From Terricaulis silvestris (GTDB taxonomy: Bacteria > Pseudomonadota > Alphaproteobacteria > Caulobacterales > Aquidulcibacteraceae), in NCBI RefSeq assembly GCF_009792355.1, contig NZ_CP047045.1, positions 1,054,001-1,118,000 of the forward strand: a stretch of DNA of 64,000 nucleotides, given 5' to 3'. Below are positions 5,089 to 24,149 of this stretch, one piece after another. A program made the translations under genes and the position numbers. The notes beneath the pieces are model-generated. The model was given only the letters and a program-made list of their open reading frames with translations, was not told the origin of the DNA and did not search any database. Each line of letters opens with the position of its first letter. The first letter of the stretch is position 1.

Positions 5089-7836
5089 ATGGATTCCGGC
5101 GACCTGCCATTGCCGCCACAGTTTGCCGCCTGGTTCGCCAGCCGCGGCTGGTCTCCGCGCGCGCATCAGCTGGAACTGATCCGGCGCGGCCAAGCCGGCC
5201 AAAGTACACTTCTCATCGCCCCCACCGGCGCCGGCAAAACGCTCGCCGGTTTCCTGCCCAGCCTGATCGATCTCGCACCCATCGCCGAAGAGGGCGGCAT
5301 CAAGCGCCCGCACGAACTGCACACGCTCTACATCTCGCCGCTCAAAGCGCTCACCACCGACGTTGCGCGCAATCTCGAGACGCCCGTGCGCGAGATGAAG
5401 CTCAATGTTCGCGTCGAGACGCGGACCGGTGACACGCCGCCACACAAACGCCAACGGCAACGCGCGCATCCACCCGACATGCTGCTCACGACGCCGGAGC
5501 AACTGTGTTTGCTGATCGCCAGCGAACACGCGCGCGTTTTCTTCGAAGACCTCCAAGTCGTCATCATCGACGAAATCCACGCCCTCGCGCCGACGAAGCG
5601 CGGGGACTTGCTAACGCTTGCGCTAGCGCGCCTGCGGCGCTGGGCGCCGAAGCACCGGCGCGTGGGCTTGAGCGCGACGGTGGCGGATGAGACGAGCCTC
5701 GCCTCCTATCTCACCGGCGCAAGCAAAGAACCCTCTCCCCCCTCGCGGGGGAGAGGGCAGGGTGGGGGGGGGCGTGCCGACAATCAGGCGCCTGATCACC
5801 TGAACGCCCCCCACCCCCCAACCCCCGCCCCGCAAGGGGGCGGGGGAGTCGCGCGCGACCTAATTGTAAAAGCCCCACCCGGCGCACAGCCCGTCATCGA
5901 CGTTCTCGACTCCGACGCCCGCATCCCCTGGGCGGGCCACACCGCGCGTCACGCCATGCCGGAGGTGTACGCCGCCATCAAACGCACCAAGCTCGCGCTC
6001 ATCTTCGTCAACACCCGCGCCCAAGCGGAGATGACGTTCCAGGAACTCTGGCGCATCAATGACGACGGGCTCCCCATCGCACTCCACCACGGCTCGCTCG
6101 ACGTCGCCCAACGCCGCAAAGTCGAAGCCGCCATGGCCGCAGGCCAACTCCGCGCTGTCGTCTGCACCTCGACGCTCGATCTCGGCATCGACTGGGGCGA
6201 CGTCGATCTCGTCATTCAGATCGGCGCGCCGAAAGGCTGCGCGCGTCTGGTGCAGCGCATCGGACGCGCCAACCACCGCCTCGATGAACCGTCGCAAGCG
6301 CTGCTTGCGCCATCAAACCGTTTCGAAGTCCTCGAATGTCGCTCCGCGCAAGAAGCCGTGCTCGAAGGCGCGCTCGACGGCGCCGATCCACGCATCGGCG
6401 GCCTCGATTGCCTCGCCCAGCACATCATGGGCTGCGCCTGCGGCGAGCCGTTCGACGCCGACGAACTCTACGCCGAAGTGATCTCCACCTTCCCGTACGC
6501 CGATCTCCCGCGCAGCCAGTTTGACCGCTGCCTCGATCTCGTCGCCACCGGCGGGTATGCGCTGCGCGCCTACGATCGCTACCGCCGCATCGTGCAAGAC
6601 CCGCACGACAATCGGTGGCGCGTGCGCAACGCCACTGTCGCGCAACAGCACCGCATGAATGTGGGCGCCATCATCGAAAGCGAGATGCTGGATGTGCGTT
6701 TGGCGCGACGAGCCGGCGTGCGGCGAAACCTTTCCTCCCCCGTAAACGGGGGAGGTGGTCGCGAAGCGACCGGAGGGGGTGCAACCGCTCAGCCGTCCGC
6801 CGCTCGTGCGCGCACCGCCCCCTCAGTCAGCTCCGCTGACAGCTCCCCCGCGCGCGGGGGAGCAAATCGTATCCCGATGATCGCCGGCCAACGCCTCGGC
6901 CAGATCGAGGAATATTTCATCGAAGGTCTCGCCCCCGGCGACACCTTCATCTTCGCCGGCAACATGCTCCGCTTCATCGGCGTCGAGGAAAATGCAGCCC
7001 TCGTCGTTCGCGCCCACGGCGAGGAGAACCCGCGCATACCCTCGTACGCCGGTGGCAAATTCCCGCTCTCGACCTTCCTCGCCGACCGCGTCCGCCACAT
7101 GCTGCACGAACCGGCGCGGCAGAAGAAACTCCCCGCCCAAGTGCGCGACTGGATCAAGATGCAGAAGCGCCGCTCCGTCGTGCCGGCGCCTGACGAGATG
7201 CTGATCGAAACATTTCCACGTGGCCTGAAGCACTATTTCGTCTGCTACCCGTTCGAAGGCCGCCTCGCGCACCAGACGCTCGGCATGCTGCTCTCACGCC
7301 GCTTCGAACGCGCCGGCAAAAATCCGCTCGGCTTCCTCGCCAGCGAATACGCCGTCGCGGTTTGGGGCCTAGAGCCGATGGGCGATCTCGACTTCAATGC
7401 GCTGTTCGATGAAGACATGCTGGGCGACGATCTCGAAGCCTGGCTCGCCGAATCCACTTTGATGAAAGCGATGTTCGCCAAGTGCGCCGTCATCGCCGGC
7501 ATGATCCACCGCAACGCACCCGCCGTCGAACGCAAGACCGGCCGCCAAGTCAGCTTCAGCGCCGATCTCATCTACGACGTGCTCAAGCAATACGAGCCCG
7601 ACCACATCCTCATGCAAGCCGCCTTCGCCGACGCCGGCGAAGGCTATCTCGATCTAAAGCGCCTCGGCGGATTGCTCCGCCGCGTCAAAGGCCGTCTCAT
7701 CCACAAAAACCTAGACCACGTCTCACCCTTCGCCGCCCCCGTGATGTTGGAGATGGGCCGCGTGCGCGTGGAGGGGGAAGCGGAGGAGGCGATCCTGGCG
7801 GATGCTGCGCGGCTGATTGAGGAAGCGATGGGGTAG
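5089..7836 (+). CDS. Ligase-associated DEXH-box helicase (Lhr type) with two repeat-derived insertions
   Basis: A 915-residue superfamily 2 helicase of the ligase-associated DNA-damage-response group (TIGR04121 type, usually a little over 800 residues). Visible motifs: Walker A APTGAGKT (44-51), PLKALTTDVARNL (motif Ia, 84-96), DEIH (161-164), SAT (195-197), CTSTLDLGIDWGD (359-371) and QRIGRANH (389-396), then the Lhr winged-helix and C-terminal regions. It should unwind DNA during repair. Two low-complexity blocks, about residues 214-253 and 547-595, are encoded by palindromic repeats and preserve the frame; removing them restores normal length. The PdeM endonuclease of the same pathway is at 12637; ligase and exonuclease are not in this window. 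Confidence 0.92.
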   Translation: MDSGDLPLPPQFAAWFASRGWSPRAHQLELIRRGQAGQSTLLIAPTGAGKTLAGFLPSLIDLAPIAEEGGIKRPHELHTLYISPLKALTTDVARNLETPVREMKLNVRVETRTGDTPPHKRQRQRAHPPDMLLTTPEQLCLLIASEHARVFFEDLQVVIIDEIHALAPTKRGDLLTLALARLRRWAPKHRRVGLSATVADETSLASYLTGASKEPSPPSRGRGQGGGGRADNQAPDHLNAPHPPTPAPQGGGGVARDLIVKAPPGAQPVIDVLDSDARIPWAGHTARHAMPEVYAAIKRTKLALIFVNTRAQAEMTFQELWRINDDGLPIALHHGSLDVAQRRKVEAAMAAGQLRAVVCTSTLDLGIDWGDVDLVIQIGAPKGCARLVQRIGRANHRLDEPSQALLAPSNRFEVLECRSAQEAVLEGALDGADPRIGGLDCLAQHIMGCACGEPFDADELYAEVISTFPYADLPRSQFDRCLDLVATGGYALRAYDRYRRIVQDPHDNRWRVRNATVAQQHRMNVGAIIESEMLDVRLARRAGVRRNLSSPVNGGGGREATGGGATAQPSAARARTAPSVSSADSSPARGGANRIPMIAGQRLGQIEEYFIEGLAPGDTFIFAGNMLRFIGVEENAALVVRAHGEENPRIPSYAGGKFPLSTFLADRVRHMLHEPARQKKLPAQVRDWIKMQKRRSVVPAPDEMLIETFPRGLKHYFVCYPFEGRLAHQTLGMLLSRRFERAGKNPLGFLASEYAVAVWGLEPMGDLDFNALFDEDMLGDDLEAWLAESTLMKAMFAKCAVIAGMIHRNAPAVERKTGRQVSFSADLIYDVLKQYEPDHILMQAAFADAGEGYLDLKRLGGLLRRVKGRLIHKNLDHVSPFAAPVMLEMGRVRVEGEAEEAILADAARLIEEAMG
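5731..5846. repeat. Inverted pair of CCCTCTCCCC-type hairpin repeats inside the helicase gene
   Basis: The left copy is an 11-bp perfect stem (5731-5741 with 5747-5757) followed by a CAGGGTGGGGGGGG run. The right copy is its inverse: a CCCCCCACCCCCC run, then a 10-bp perfect stem (5822-5831 with 5837-5846). The G-rich ends face inward across about 30 bp, which contains a perfect 14-bp palindrome, ATCAGGCGCCTGAT, at 5783-5796. The block is translated in frame as Pro/Gly/Arg-rich residues 214-253. Confidence 0.85.
6734..6863. repeat. Inverted pair of CCTCCCCC/GGAGGGGG repeats inside the helicase gene
   Basis: The left copy has a 10-bp perfect stem (6734-6743 with 6746-6755), a second stem GGTCGC/GCGACC (6757-6771) and a GGAGGGGGT end. 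The right copy is inverted: GCCCCCTCA, a TCAGC/GCTGA stem with a short loop, and a CTCCCCCG/CGGGGGAG hairpin ending near 6863. The G-rich ends face inward. The block reads through in frame, giving a Gly/Ser/Ala-rich insert at about residues 547-595. The architecture is the same as the pair flanking the DUF559 gene. Confidence 0.85.
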
Positions 7837-21392: not shown

Positions 21393-23186
21393 ATGCCGAG
21401 TTATACGGCGCCGCTGCGCGAGTACCGCTTTCTCCTGAAAGACGTGCTCGACATCGAGCGATACTCCAACCTGCCCGGCTTCTCCGATGCGCCGATGGAC
21501 CTGATCGATCAGGTCCTCGAGGAAGGCGCCAAGTTCTGCGAAGGCGTGCTCGCGCCGCTGAACAAGGTTGGCGACGAACACGGCTGCAAGCGCCGCGACG
21601 ACGGCTCGGTCGAAACACCGCCGGGCTTCAAGGAAGCCTACAAGCAATTCACCGACGGCGGCTGGTCGGCGCTCTCAAGCGATCCGAACTATGGCGGGCA
21701 GGGCATGCCCCACGTTGTCGCCATGGCTTGGAGCGAGATGTGCTCGAGCGCCAACATGGCCTTCACCATGTACCCCGGCCTCAGCCACGGCGCCTACGCC
21801 GCCATCCATCACCACGGCAGCGACGAGCAAAAGCAAACCTATTTGCCGAAGCTCGTCAGCGGCGAATGGACCGGCACCATGAATTTGACGGAGCCGCACT
21901 GCGGCACTGATCTGGGCATGTTGCGCACCAAAGCCATCCCGCAAGCCGATGGCAGCTATCGCATCACCGGTCAGAAGATTTTCATCTCTGCCGGCGAACA
22001 CGATCTCGCGCCGAACATCATCCATCTTGTGCTCGCGCGCATCGAAGGCGCGCCGCAAGGCACCAAGGGCATCTCGCTTTTCATCGTGCCGAAGTTCGTC
22101 CTCGACAAGGACGGAAACCCGGACACGCGCAACGGCGTCGTCTGCGGCAAGATCGAAGAAAAGATGGGCATTCACGGCAATTCGACGTGCGTGCTCAACT
22201 ATGACGACGCGACCGGGTATCTCGTCGGCGTGGAGAACAAGGGTCTCCAGGGCATGTTCGTGATGATGAACGTCGCCCGCCTTGGCGTTGGCCTTCAAGG
22301 CTTGAGCCAATCGGAAGTCGCGTATCAAAACGGCGTCGCCTACGCCAAGGATCGCCTGCAGGGCCGCTCCATCACCGGCGCGAAAAATCCGAATGGCCCC
22401 GCCGATCCAATCATCGTCCATCCGGACATCCGCCGCATGTTGATGGACGCCAAGGCGTTCAACGAAGCCGCGCGCGCTTTCGCCTTCTGGACCGCGCTCT
22501 ACGGCGATCTGCTCACCAACTCGCCCGACGAAAAAGTGCGCGAGAAGGCCGACGACTACATGGGCCTGATGACGCCGGTCATCAAAAGCTATTTGACCGA
22601 CAAGGGCTACGCCAACGCCACCAATTGCCAGCAAATCTTCGGCGGCCACGGCTACATCGAGGAGCACGGCATGTCGCAATTCGTGCGCGATGCCCGTATC
22701 GCCATGATCTACGAAGGCGCCAACGGCATCCAGGCGCTCGATCTGGTCGGCCGCAAGCTCGGCGCCAATGGCGGCCGCGCTCTGTTCGCGTTCTTCAAGG
22801 AGATCGACGAATGGTGCGAAGCCAACGAAGCCGACGCTGAGCTGAAGTCCTTCACTGACGCACTGCGCTCAACCAAAGCCCAGATGCAAGACGGCGCCAT
22901 GTGGCTGATGCAAAACGGCATGTCGAACTTCGACAACGCGGGCGCTGCCTCCCACGATTTCCTCAATCTCTTCGGCATCACCGCGCTCACTTATATGTGG
23001 GCGCTGCAAGCCAAAGCCGCACTCGCCGCCAAGAAGAACGGCGGCGCCGCCGATCCGTACTACGACACCAAGCTCGCCACCGGCCGCTACTTCCTCGCTC
23101 GCATGACGCCGGACGCTGGCGCACACTTGGCGAAGCTGAAGTCCGGCGCCGACCCGGTGATGGCGCTCAGCGCGGAGCAGTTCTGA
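21393..23186 (+). CDS. Acyl-CoA dehydrogenase, ~600-residue FadE/DmdC-like type
   Basis: A 597-residue FAD enzyme with the N-terminal, middle and C-terminal acyl-CoA dehydrogenase domains plus the extra C-terminal domain of the long bacterial type. Motifs: MNLTEPHCGTDLG (middle domain), KIFISAGEHDL, NVARLGVGLQGL, QQIFGGHGYIEEHGMSQFVR and IYEGANGIQALDL with catalytic Glu441. It catalyses the first step of beta-oxidation, forming trans-2-enoyl-CoA and passing electrons to ETF. It starts with GGGAGCGAGAG before ATG. It follows the MerR gene, and a repeat-flanked DUF559 unit sits directly after its stop. Confidence 0.93.
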   Translation: MPSYTAPLREYRFLLKDVLDIERYSNLPGFSDAPMDLIDQVLEEGAKFCEGVLAPLNKVGDEHGCKRRDDGSVETPPGFKEAYKQFTDGGWSALSSDPNYGGQGMPHVVAMAWSEMCSSANMAFTMYPGLSHGAYAAIHHHGSDEQKQTYLPKLVSGEWTGTMNLTEPHCGTDLGMLRTKAIPQADGSYRITGQKIFISAGEHDLAPNIIHLVLARIEGAPQGTKGISLFIVPKFVLDKDGNPDTRNGVVCGKIEEKMGIHGNSTCVLNYDDATGYLVGVENKGLQGMFVMMNVARLGVGLQGLSQSEVAYQNGVAYAKDRLQGRSITGAKNPNGPADPIIVHPDIRRMLMDAKAFNEAARAFAFWTALYGDLLTNSPDEKVREKADDYMGLMTPVIKSYLTDKGYANATNCQQIFGGHGYIEEHGMSQFVRDARIAMIYEGANGIQALDLVGRKLGANGGRALFAFFKEIDEWCEANEADAELKSFTDALRSTKAQMQDGAMWLMQNGMSNFDNAGAASHDFLNLFGITALTYMWALQAKAALAAKKNGGAADPYYDTKLATGRYFLARMTPDAGAHLAKLKSGADPVMALSAEQF

Positions 23187-23210: not shown

Positions 23211-23662
23211 GCTCACCCGTTTACGGGGGAGCTGTCAGCGCGCGCAGCGCGATGACTGAGGGGGTGGCGCTATGAGAAGAGGCGAAGCACGCTCGCGCCA
23301 ATTCGCCCGTCGTCTCCGCAAGGAGATGACGGAAGCCGAAGTCGTGCTTTGGACATTCCTCCGCAAGCGGGCGCTGAACGGCCACAAGTTTCGCCGGCAA
23401 CACCCGATCGGTCCGTACATCGCCGACTTCGCCTGCGTCAGCGAGCGCCTAGTGCTCGAAGTCGACGGCGCAACGCACTGGACGCCGGAAGAGCTAGCGC
23501 ACGACGCCAAGCGAACAGCATTTCTGGAGAACGCCGGCTGGCGCGTCGTCCGTGTCACGAACCTCGACGTGTTCGAGAACATGGATGGCGTTTGGCAAAC
23601 AATCGCGCAGCGGTTGCCCCCTCCGGCGGCTTCGCCGCCTGCCTCCCCCGCAAGCGGGGGAA
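23211..23662. mobile_element. DUF559 nuclease gene bracketed by inverted two-hairpin repeats
   Basis: Left repeat 23211-23271: GCTCACCCGT/ACGGGGGAGC hairpin (one mismatch), a second hairpin with GTCA/TGAC ends, then GAGGGGGTGGCGC. Right repeat, inverted, about 23617-23662: GCCCCCTCC, a GGCGGC/GCCGCC hairpin, then a TCCCCCGC/GCGGGGGA hairpin. The G-rich ends face the DUF559 gene. The unit sits between acyl-CoA dehydrogenase and OsmC genes of a degradation operon. The same repeat pair without a gene lies at 6734-6863. This parallels REP/RAYT units, with a PD-(D/E)XK-like protein in place of the Y1 transposase. Mobility is inferred, not shown; no target duplication could be identified. Confidence 0.55.
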
Positions 23663-23682
23663 GAAACTGGAGCGAGGCATGA
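23272..23682 (+). CDS. DUF559 (Vsr-like fold) endonuclease-domain protein
   Basis: A 136-residue basic protein. The DUF559 core is complete: RQFARRLRKEMTEAEVVLW (9-27), FRRQHPIGPYIADFAC (40-55) and RLVLEVDGATHW (59-70) with Asp52, Glu63, Asp65 and His69 as candidate catalytic residues, then GWRVVRVTNLDVFENMDGV. The domain is related to very-short-patch-repair endonucleases. Residues about 116-136 (PPPAASPPASPASGG and on) are translated from the right-hand palindromic repeat. The start lies directly after the left repeat, whose GAGGGGG end acts as its ribosome site. The stop overlaps the OsmC start (ATGA). Confidence 0.88.
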   Translation: MRRGEARSRQFARRLRKEMTEAEVVLWTFLRKRALNGHKFRRQHPIGPYIADFACVSERLVLEVDGATHWTPEELAHDAKRTAFLENAGWRVVRVTNLDVFENMDGVWQTIAQRLPPPAASPPASPASGGRNWSEA

Positions 23683-24149
23683 CCAACTATACCGCCACCG
23701 TTATCTGGGAACGCGGCGACGCCGTCTTCACCGACGGCCAATACTCGCGCGCCCACGAAATCTCGTTCGACGGCGGCGTCACCATGCCGGGCTCATCCTC
23801 ACCGCATGTCGTCAAGCTTCCGCTCTCACGCGAAGACGCGGTCGATCCCGAAGAAATGCTCGTGGCGTCGCTCTCGACGTGCCACATGCTGTTCGTGCTC
23901 GATTTCGCGCGCCGCGCTGGATACGTGATCGACTCCTACGTCGACGTCGCCGAAGGCGTCATGGGCAAGGACGATCGCGGCCGCATGGCCGTCACCCAAG
24001 TGAGACTCAACCCGGAAATCTCCTGGAGCGGTGCCAAGCAGCCGACCCCGGAAGAAGTCCGCGAGCTGCATCACAAGTCGCACGAAGCCTGTTTCATCGC
24101 CAATTCCTTCCGCGGCGACATCGCCATTGCGGGTGGAGAGGCGAACTAA
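23679..24149 (+). CDS. OsmC-family peroxiredoxin-like protein
   Basis: A 156-residue OsmC/Ohr-fold protein. It carries the two redox cysteines: Cys68 in LVASLSTCHMLFVLDFA and Cys138 in HKSHEACFIANSF. The family reduces organic or fatty-acid hydroperoxides using thiols. A GGAG ribosome site precedes ATG 23679, which overlaps the DUF559 TGA. Its place among beta-oxidation genes fits removal of lipid hydroperoxides, an inference. It was probably directly downstream of the acyl-CoA dehydrogenase before the repeat-DUF559 unit arrived. Confidence 0.9.
   Translation: MTNYTATVIWERGDAVFTDGQYSRAHEISFDGGVTMPGSSSPHVVKLPLSREDAVDPEEMLVASLSTCHMLFVLDFARRAGYVIDSYVDVAEGVMGKDDRGRMAVTQVRLNPEISWSGAKQPTPEEVRELHHKSHEACFIANSFRGDIAIAGGEAN

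Follow-up and report, generated by a model that had tools for sequence, protein, structure and literature searches.

A Vsr-like DUF559 nuclease gene between inverted hairpin repeats in Terricaulis silvestris: a probable REP-like gene–repeat partnership

Between an acyl-CoA dehydrogenase gene and an OsmC-like gene of Terricaulis silvestris lies a short gene of the DUF559 family, a widespread family of unknown role, closely bracketed by hairpin-forming DNA, and the question that this locus raises is whether the gene and the repeats around it belong together in the manner of REP sequences and their RAYT transposases. A preliminary description of the window, by which we mean the whole stretch of 64,000 nucleotides that was analysed, had proposed just such a REP-style unit built on DUF559. 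The dehydrogenase gene (21393..23186, + strand; Pfam PF12806, PF00441, PF02770, and PF02771), whose TGA stop is part of the junction TGATG seen at empty sites, is followed by a left unit at 23211–23269 on the + strand that consists of an outer hairpin 1 with a C-rich arm, a G-rich arm, and one mismatch (GCTCACCCGTTTACGGGGGAGC, 23211..23232), a hairpin 2 of the form GTCA...TGAC (GTCAGCGCGCGCAGCGCGATGAC, 23234..23256), and, by sequence, a G-rich tail pointing to the gene (23257..23269), both hairpins being identified from sequence and DNA folding (fold z −3.4 for the unit). Two bases, instead of the one originally given, separate the end of this unit from the ATG of the DUF559 gene (23272..23682, + strand; 136 amino acids), in which residues 8–115 match PF04480 (E 3.7e-36). 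The right unit (23617–23662, − strand) has the same parts in mirror order, with the tail, C-rich on the + strand, coming first: this tail, G-rich as read on the − strand and again pointing to the gene (23617..23624; sequence), is followed by hairpin 2 (GGCGGCTTCGCCGCC, 23625..23639; sequence and DNA fold) and by an outer hairpin 1 (CCTCCCCCGCAAGCGGGGGAA, 23642..23662) with a perfect 7-bp stem. The fold of the right unit is unexceptional (z −1.7), and the unit lies, as first described, within the last 20 or so codons of the DUF559 gene, of which it encodes about residues 116–130; the TGA stop at 23680–23682 overlaps the ATG at 23679 of the OsmC-like gene (23679..24149, + strand; PF02566, E 1.9e-13). 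Sequence and folding bear out the placing of the gene between inverted two-hairpin C-rich/G-rich units, with the G-rich ends toward the gene on both sides, and an Rfam search of the window gave no RNA family match. The two units resemble each other in hairpin 1 only (local score 10), so that the window locus alone stays below the score of 15 used as a test below, and the strength of the association comes from other DUF559 loci.

The genome of T. silvestris (3.86 Mb, one contig) has eight PF04480 genes. Judged by eye, C-rich/G-rich hairpin units flank seven of them on each side and the eighth on its right only, and several different versions of the unit are distinguishable among these flanks. 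One of the eight (L004; G000:C1:3589268-3592576), with units on both sides, has an internal TGA inside its domain match and by appearance is a decaying gene. The association was scored by local alignment of the left flank against the reverse complement of the right flank, with cut-offs of at least 15 and at least 18. Among 37 first family loci (the eight of T. silvestris and 29 best matches of relatives), 28 and 25 reached the two cut-offs, as against 2 and 0 of 410 ORFs drawn by a simple length rule from 464 kb of the same genome, with the window DUF559 gene left among them; mismatched left/right flank pairs (n = 1332) reached them in 10.5% and 6.2% of cases. A further 40 family loci from eight genomes yielded 31 at 15 or above. 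Across the phylum, PF04480 was present in 165 of 396 sampled Pseudomonadota genomes, and 69 loci from the top of the E-value list of this draw, one per genome, gave 39 and 34 at the two cut-offs, while the 80 GTDB-contig loci closest to the window protein, 77 of which were scored after three clipped on the left had been dropped, gave 61 and 50, contigs of Nitrospinota, Latescibacteria, and Binatia included. With nine GTDB-contig loci identical to others removed, these sets comprise 214 distinct DUF559 loci, of which 151 score at least 15 and 63 score below it, against the 2 of 410 ORFs; the refuting outcome named in the preliminary description, namely DUF559 genes flanked by such repeats no more often than other genes, is therefore absent. 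Chance at one locus was considered as an explanation and is ruled out by the genome, family, and phylum sets.

Other gene families served as further controls. OsmC loci reached 15 in 0 of 30 cases with domain-edge flanks and in 1 of 30 with ORF-edge flanks, and Y1 transposase loci in 1 of 30 and 5 of 30, respectively, the Y1 set being a rough one in which RAYT-like and other IS200-like genes are mixed and in which the match edges are wrong in the clipped L251 and L265. When the flanks of DUF559 were taken from the longest ORF (earliest start codon) instead of the domain match, 20/37 and 19/69 loci scored. Perfect pyrimidine/purine hairpins on both sides were found at 22/37, 34/69, and 40/77 DUF559 loci, as against 0/28 Y1 loci (two with short left flanks having been dropped), 0/30 OsmC loci, and 0/408 ORFs. 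Six records from a plasmid collection were also scored, those of Sinorhizobium, Sphingomonas, and Deinococcus reaching 20 or more and the other three not. These three, from E. coli (L297), Azospirillum (L299), and Neisseria (L301) and all outside the 214, fall below 15 and, having no flanking pair by score, are possibly domesticated nucleases. At L298, on S. meliloti pSymB, a long near-identical inverted stretch stands on each side of DUF559 (score 102), and parts of it recur in many Sinorhizobium and Rhizobium replicons.

Across the 214 loci, a perfect 6-bp hairpin of the pyrimidine/purine type stands on both sides at 122, on one side at 76, and on neither at 16. Both directions are readable at 67 of the 122, with 42 pairs facing inward, 14 outward, and 11 in the same direction, a departure from the 1:1:2 expectation (chi-square p 2e-12), and the nearest units are inverted relative to each other at 56 of these 67; in a cruder reading, the left tail points to the gene in 86 cases and away in 25, and the right tail to the gene in 68 and away in 42. 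Placement varies, some DUF559 genes lying inside one pair and others between two complete pairs. A second hairpin (perfect stem of at least 5) is present in 76 of 222 units, compared with 15% in shuffles, and is not universal; where it occurs at both ends, its stems differ between the ends in 17 of 18 loci, pairing being often kept while the letters change. Many units carry, by eye only, TG(G/T)C...GACGG beside hairpin 2. A direct comparison of inverted with direct scores favoured the inverted arrangement at 46/77, 36/69, and 49/77 loci and the direct one at 27, 27, and 22, respectively, which is a weak test because the hairpins are themselves palindromes.

The protein has a predicted fold that is Vsr/I-Bth0305I-like. 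The AlphaFold2 model of the window protein has a mean pLDDT of 89, and a Foldseek search with this model gave 3hrl at E 8.7e-7, the homing endonuclease I-Bth0305I (3r3p) at E 2.2e-5, and a weaker match to Vsr (1cw0) at E 6e-3, in keeping with a profile search in which 3hrl (E 9.6e-35) and 3r3p (E 5.6e-6) were matched; against the NCBIfam Vsr model, the protein scores 17.2 bits, far below the cut-off of 97.85. A D..ExDG..H pattern, which we take to resemble the Vsr motif, is conserved in the family, with D52, E63, and D65 invariant in 33 sequences. The ratio dN/dS was 0.04–0.14 in 12 of 15 chosen DUF559 pairs, silent sites being saturated in the other three, and by this codon comparison the gene is under purifying selection. 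A defence role was set aside, PADLOC having given weak matches only, in four proteins. According to the accessible text of PMC12907096, VsrA, a DUF559 protein of Caulobacter, causes a DNA-damage response in cells without a cytosine methyltransferase.

Related nucleases tend to have related units: across the 59 family loci whose repeat pair is clear, repeat similarity is correlated with protein identity (Mantel r 0.62; 0 of 2000 permutations), with a Spearman coefficient of only 0.30 over all pairs. A repeat score of at least 20 was found in 1–4% of different-genome pairs below 50% identity and in 68–78% of pairs at 60% or above, and at 36 of 44 loci the repeat of the nearest relative in another genome was more similar than that of any DUF559 gene in the same genome. 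Part of this co-divergence is shared descent, since the outer flanks are homologous in 39 of 85 pairs with at least 60% identity, and 35 of these 39 have a repeat score of at least 20; the remaining 46 lie at non-homologous sites, and 26 of them still reach 20. Each lineage is nearly single-copy, given that only 3 of 104 same-genome DUF559 pairs at loci with a clear repeat pair are at least 60% identical. In two cases (L369/L389 and L378/L383), elements of one lineage occupy homologous sites but point in opposite directions, a pattern that recombination between the element ends could have produced.

Units of the same kind also occur away from the gene. The window itself holds a gene-less inverted pair of CTCCCCCG-type units at 6734..6863 (130 bp), REPIN-like and with tails facing inward, and a second gene-less pair at 5731..5846 made of two unit types, CCCTCTCC and CCCCCGCCCC, the right-hand unit being the L008-lineage DUF559 hairpin; this second pair looks as if two systems had mixed. 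In a scan of 800 kb from three genomes (400 kb of T. silvestris and 200 kb from each of two relatives), all eight close hairpin pairs faced inward and spanned 103–148 bp, and one T. silvestris pair was similar to the termini of the L006 element. Good matches to a DUF559 flank were found for 28 of 42 dispersed hairpins, and for 13 of these 28 the best match was a flank from their own genome, where 2.1 were expected (members of a pair being non-independent).

Repeat dosage was examined as the number of CTCCCC hairpins against that of DUF559 genes in 60 family genomes, kinship between genomes being ignored in every comparison. The correlation is 0.63 (rho, per Mb) and falls to 0.50 on counts from which two flanking copies per gene have been subtracted, remaining, on the subtracted counts, at 0.43 within the genus (p 0.017) and 0.40 in other genera (p 0.027). 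The median number of hairpins is 5 in the 13 genomes without DUF559 and 37 in the 47 others (32 after subtraction, p 0.006), with a maximum of 304 per genome; among the exceptions, two DUF559-free genomes have 37 and 43 hairpins, and some carriers have few. At the level of one lineage, the L008-lineage hairpin has a median of 6.5 in ten carriers (at least 65% identity) and of 1 in 17 same-genus non-carriers (p 0.004, or 0.017 after flank subtraction, kinship again ignored), six genomes with intermediate (50–56%) relatives having been set aside; a matching hairpin is missing from 2 of the 10 carriers and present in 10 of 44 non-carriers. With these exceptions, the expectation that repeat number would rise with DUF559 number is upheld.

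The element is also missing from related genomes at the same sites. OsmC was found in 50 of the 60 family genomes, and the 30 loci examined are that of T. silvestris and those of 29 of the 49 relatives. In 14 of these 29, the dehydrogenase stop and the OsmC start overlap as TGATG with nothing between them, which is the empty allele that the preliminary description had sought and whose absence it had named as refuting. Of the remaining relatives, one has a 6-base gap, one a 140-bp pair without the gene, one a solitary unit, and one a remnant lacking the gene; other palindromic repeats occur in four, one sequence starts inside a DUF559 element, and in six no dehydrogenase lies directly upstream of OsmC. 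G053 also has the element between dehydrogenase and OsmC, and in G049, on a contig that stops short of any dehydrogenase, it precedes that OsmC gene. In a tree built from the neighbouring genes, G049 stands apart from T. silvestris (G000) and G053, G049 being placed on OsmC alone and its nearest fork weakly supported, and the history of the element at this site would, on these sequences, be one of two gains or of one gain and several losses. That the element passed recently between G000 and G049 was considered, since DUF559 is 81–83% identical between them and OsmC 60–61%; the silent sites of DUF559 are saturated, so this difference does not demonstrate it, and the proposal is unsupported.

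Two further sites gave the same result, so that empty sites exist at three of the three loci tested. At the L007 site (24 relatives with both flanks), T. silvestris has 477 bases, G042 has 16, and G040 has 0; G058 has another DUF559 element, and in most of the rest the gap contains other DNA, at most 1188 bases long, so that it is variable in any case. At the L004 site (11 relatives with both flanks), T. silvestris has 486 bases, five relatives have 24–35, G043 has the element, and others have 53–358. No clear target duplication was visible by eye at the three sites, where the relatives are only about 71–90% identical, and a search for presence/absence within species among S. meliloti and Azospirillum replicons gave no informative empty site among the matches listed. 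At the DUF559-element junctions L043, L046, L048, L065, L320, L340, and L344, other palindromic repeats are found (GGAGCGCG...CGCGCTCC and GTCATTCCGGA...TCCGGAATGAC, CGTC-REP-like), and some gene junctions seem to be landing places for repeats.

Taken together, the anatomy of the units, their lineage-specific pairing with the nuclease, the gene-less copies, and the empty sites support a partnership of the REP-RAYT kind with an unrelated nuclease, and we consider it likely that this is a REP/REPIN-like association of gene and repeat in which a small Vsr-like PD-(D/E)XK nuclease, DUF559, takes the place of the Y1 HUH transposase. The initial proposal of a REP-style unit holds for arrangement, dosage, and empty sites; it does not hold in the sense of a freely jumping unit, because different species often keep the element at one and the same site (39 of the 85 same-lineage pairs), and DUF559 looks more like a RAYT, that is, a persistent gene serving dispersed repeats. 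In mechanistic terms, we infer recognition, cutting with its specificity, and mobilisation by DUF559: the nuclease would recognise its cognate unit, probably in the form of a hairpin that is extruded or single-stranded, and cut or nick there, whereupon host repair or replication would copy short gene-less pairs in trans to new intergenic places, and the DUF559 gene itself, like a RAYT, would seldom multiply and would often stay in place. A stronger proposition is that of a second, independent class of REP-like system, distributed across Pseudomonadota and represented by single contigs in Nitrospinota, Latescibacteria, Binatia, and Deinococcus, whose Vsr-fold nuclease would recognise hairpins specific to its lineage and cause short gene-less copies to spread; for this proposition we regard the balance as even.

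The observations that bear on this partnership also bear on three other explanations. Gene and repeat would also co-evolve if the protein read the repeats without moving them, as a guard or housekeeping nuclease that binds and cuts hairpins (in cruciform removal, repair, or Vsr-like mismatch repair) or is regulated by them, the repeats being spread by other means; the Vsr-like fold, the strong purifying selection, the frequent persistence at one site, and the DNA-damage response of Caulobacter VsrA (PMC12907096, accessible text) all fit such a role, which nevertheless appears improbable to us because it accounts neither for the insertion of gene and units together at otherwise empty junctions nor for the likeness of gene-less pairs to the gene's ends. 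DUF559 might also be a homing-like gene: its nuclease would cleave the junction where this is unbroken, repair would copy the element into it, and the repeats would be mere edges. I-Bth0305I is among the closest solved relatives, and in G000, G053, and G049, which belong to different parts of the neighbouring-gene tree, a related DUF559 gene directly precedes the same OsmC gene; repeats without the gene, in numbers of up to 304 hairpins per genome, the 46 of 85 same-lineage pairs at non-homologous sites, and saturated silent sites that leave recent same-site transfer unsupported make this explanation quite unlikely.

Another agent might, finally, insert repeats into intergenic gaps of the kind that short, solitary DUF559 genes have, leaving gene and repeat as passive neighbours, and the unrelated palindromic repeats at the same junctions in several relatives speak for this explanation. 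It would not be expected to generate a lineage-specific match of gene and repeat, nor does it sit well with the lack of both-sided hairpins at the OsmC loci (0/30) and T. silvestris ORFs (0/408), and we give it very little credence.

The proposed DUF559 partnership can be compared with several known systems. In the accessible text of PMC3116915 and PMC3733652, RAYTs are described as distinct, single-copy genes flanked by palindromic units, and REPs as mostly inverted doublets of high copy number. Flanking of the gene by inverted palindromic repeats (151/214 loci), dispersed gene-less, REPIN-like inverted doublets (8/8 inward, 103–148 bp), and, by comparison with the single-copy RAYTs of PMC3116915, lineages nearly single-copy per genome (3/104) are common to DUF559 and these REP-RAYT systems (REPtrons). 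The DUF559 partner differs in having a PD-(D/E)XK/Vsr fold and not that of a Y1 HUH enzyme, the T. silvestris genome having no match to PF01797 (Y1 transposase), and the DUF559 units differ from REPs by their C/G-rich arms and by the second hairpin that many lineages have. That the repeats might belong to a RAYT since lost was rejected, no Y1 gene having been found in this genome and the hairpin type occurring at 0/28 sampled Y1 genes. With Vsr and the I-Bth0305I-type homing endonucleases of the Vsr-like (EDxHD) group, DUF559 shares the predicted catalytic fold (Foldseek 3r3p and 1cw0), but the window gene adjoins a dehydrogenase and an OsmC gene and not an intron, an intein, or a methyltransferase. 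Insertion sequences and MITEs are marked by terminal inverted repeats and a target site duplication together with a transposase; in the present element, inverted repeats occur, DUF559 is the only gene, and no duplication is readable by eye at three sites.

Our literature search, in which most subscription journals and all bioRxiv preprints were outside the scope, found no earlier report of a DUF559–repeat partnership among the papers listed, and the words nuclease and transposase are absent from the accessible main text of a 2025 REP survey (PMC12306157). The pairing with hairpins offers a testable target for the DUF559 family, and, if it is as we propose, a partnership of the REP-RAYT kind arose twice with unrelated enzymes, and repeat families whose mover is unknown would have a dedicated enzyme. 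The Caulobacter CIR repeats are described in the accessible text of PMC2229807 as about 110 bp long, with two inverted arms and a linker and a GANTC site at a loop, and as abundant in alpha-proteobacteria; their mechanism of mobility is left open there, and no gene partner is named in that text. DUF559 would be a candidate for moving repeats of the kind of the CGTC-tagged REPs of alpha-proteobacteria, the same class as that of the window, which are mostly HH dimers and, in the accessible text of PMC3733652, "seem lacking a dedicated transposase"; these have a single 8–9 bp stem in which AT pairs almost always come first. Some hairpin 2 stems in the flanks of L011 and L029 (GTCATCCCGG...CCGGGATGAC and GTCCCGGAC...GTCCGGGAC) resemble CGTC-tagged REPs, a hint that the latter may be parts of DUF559 units.
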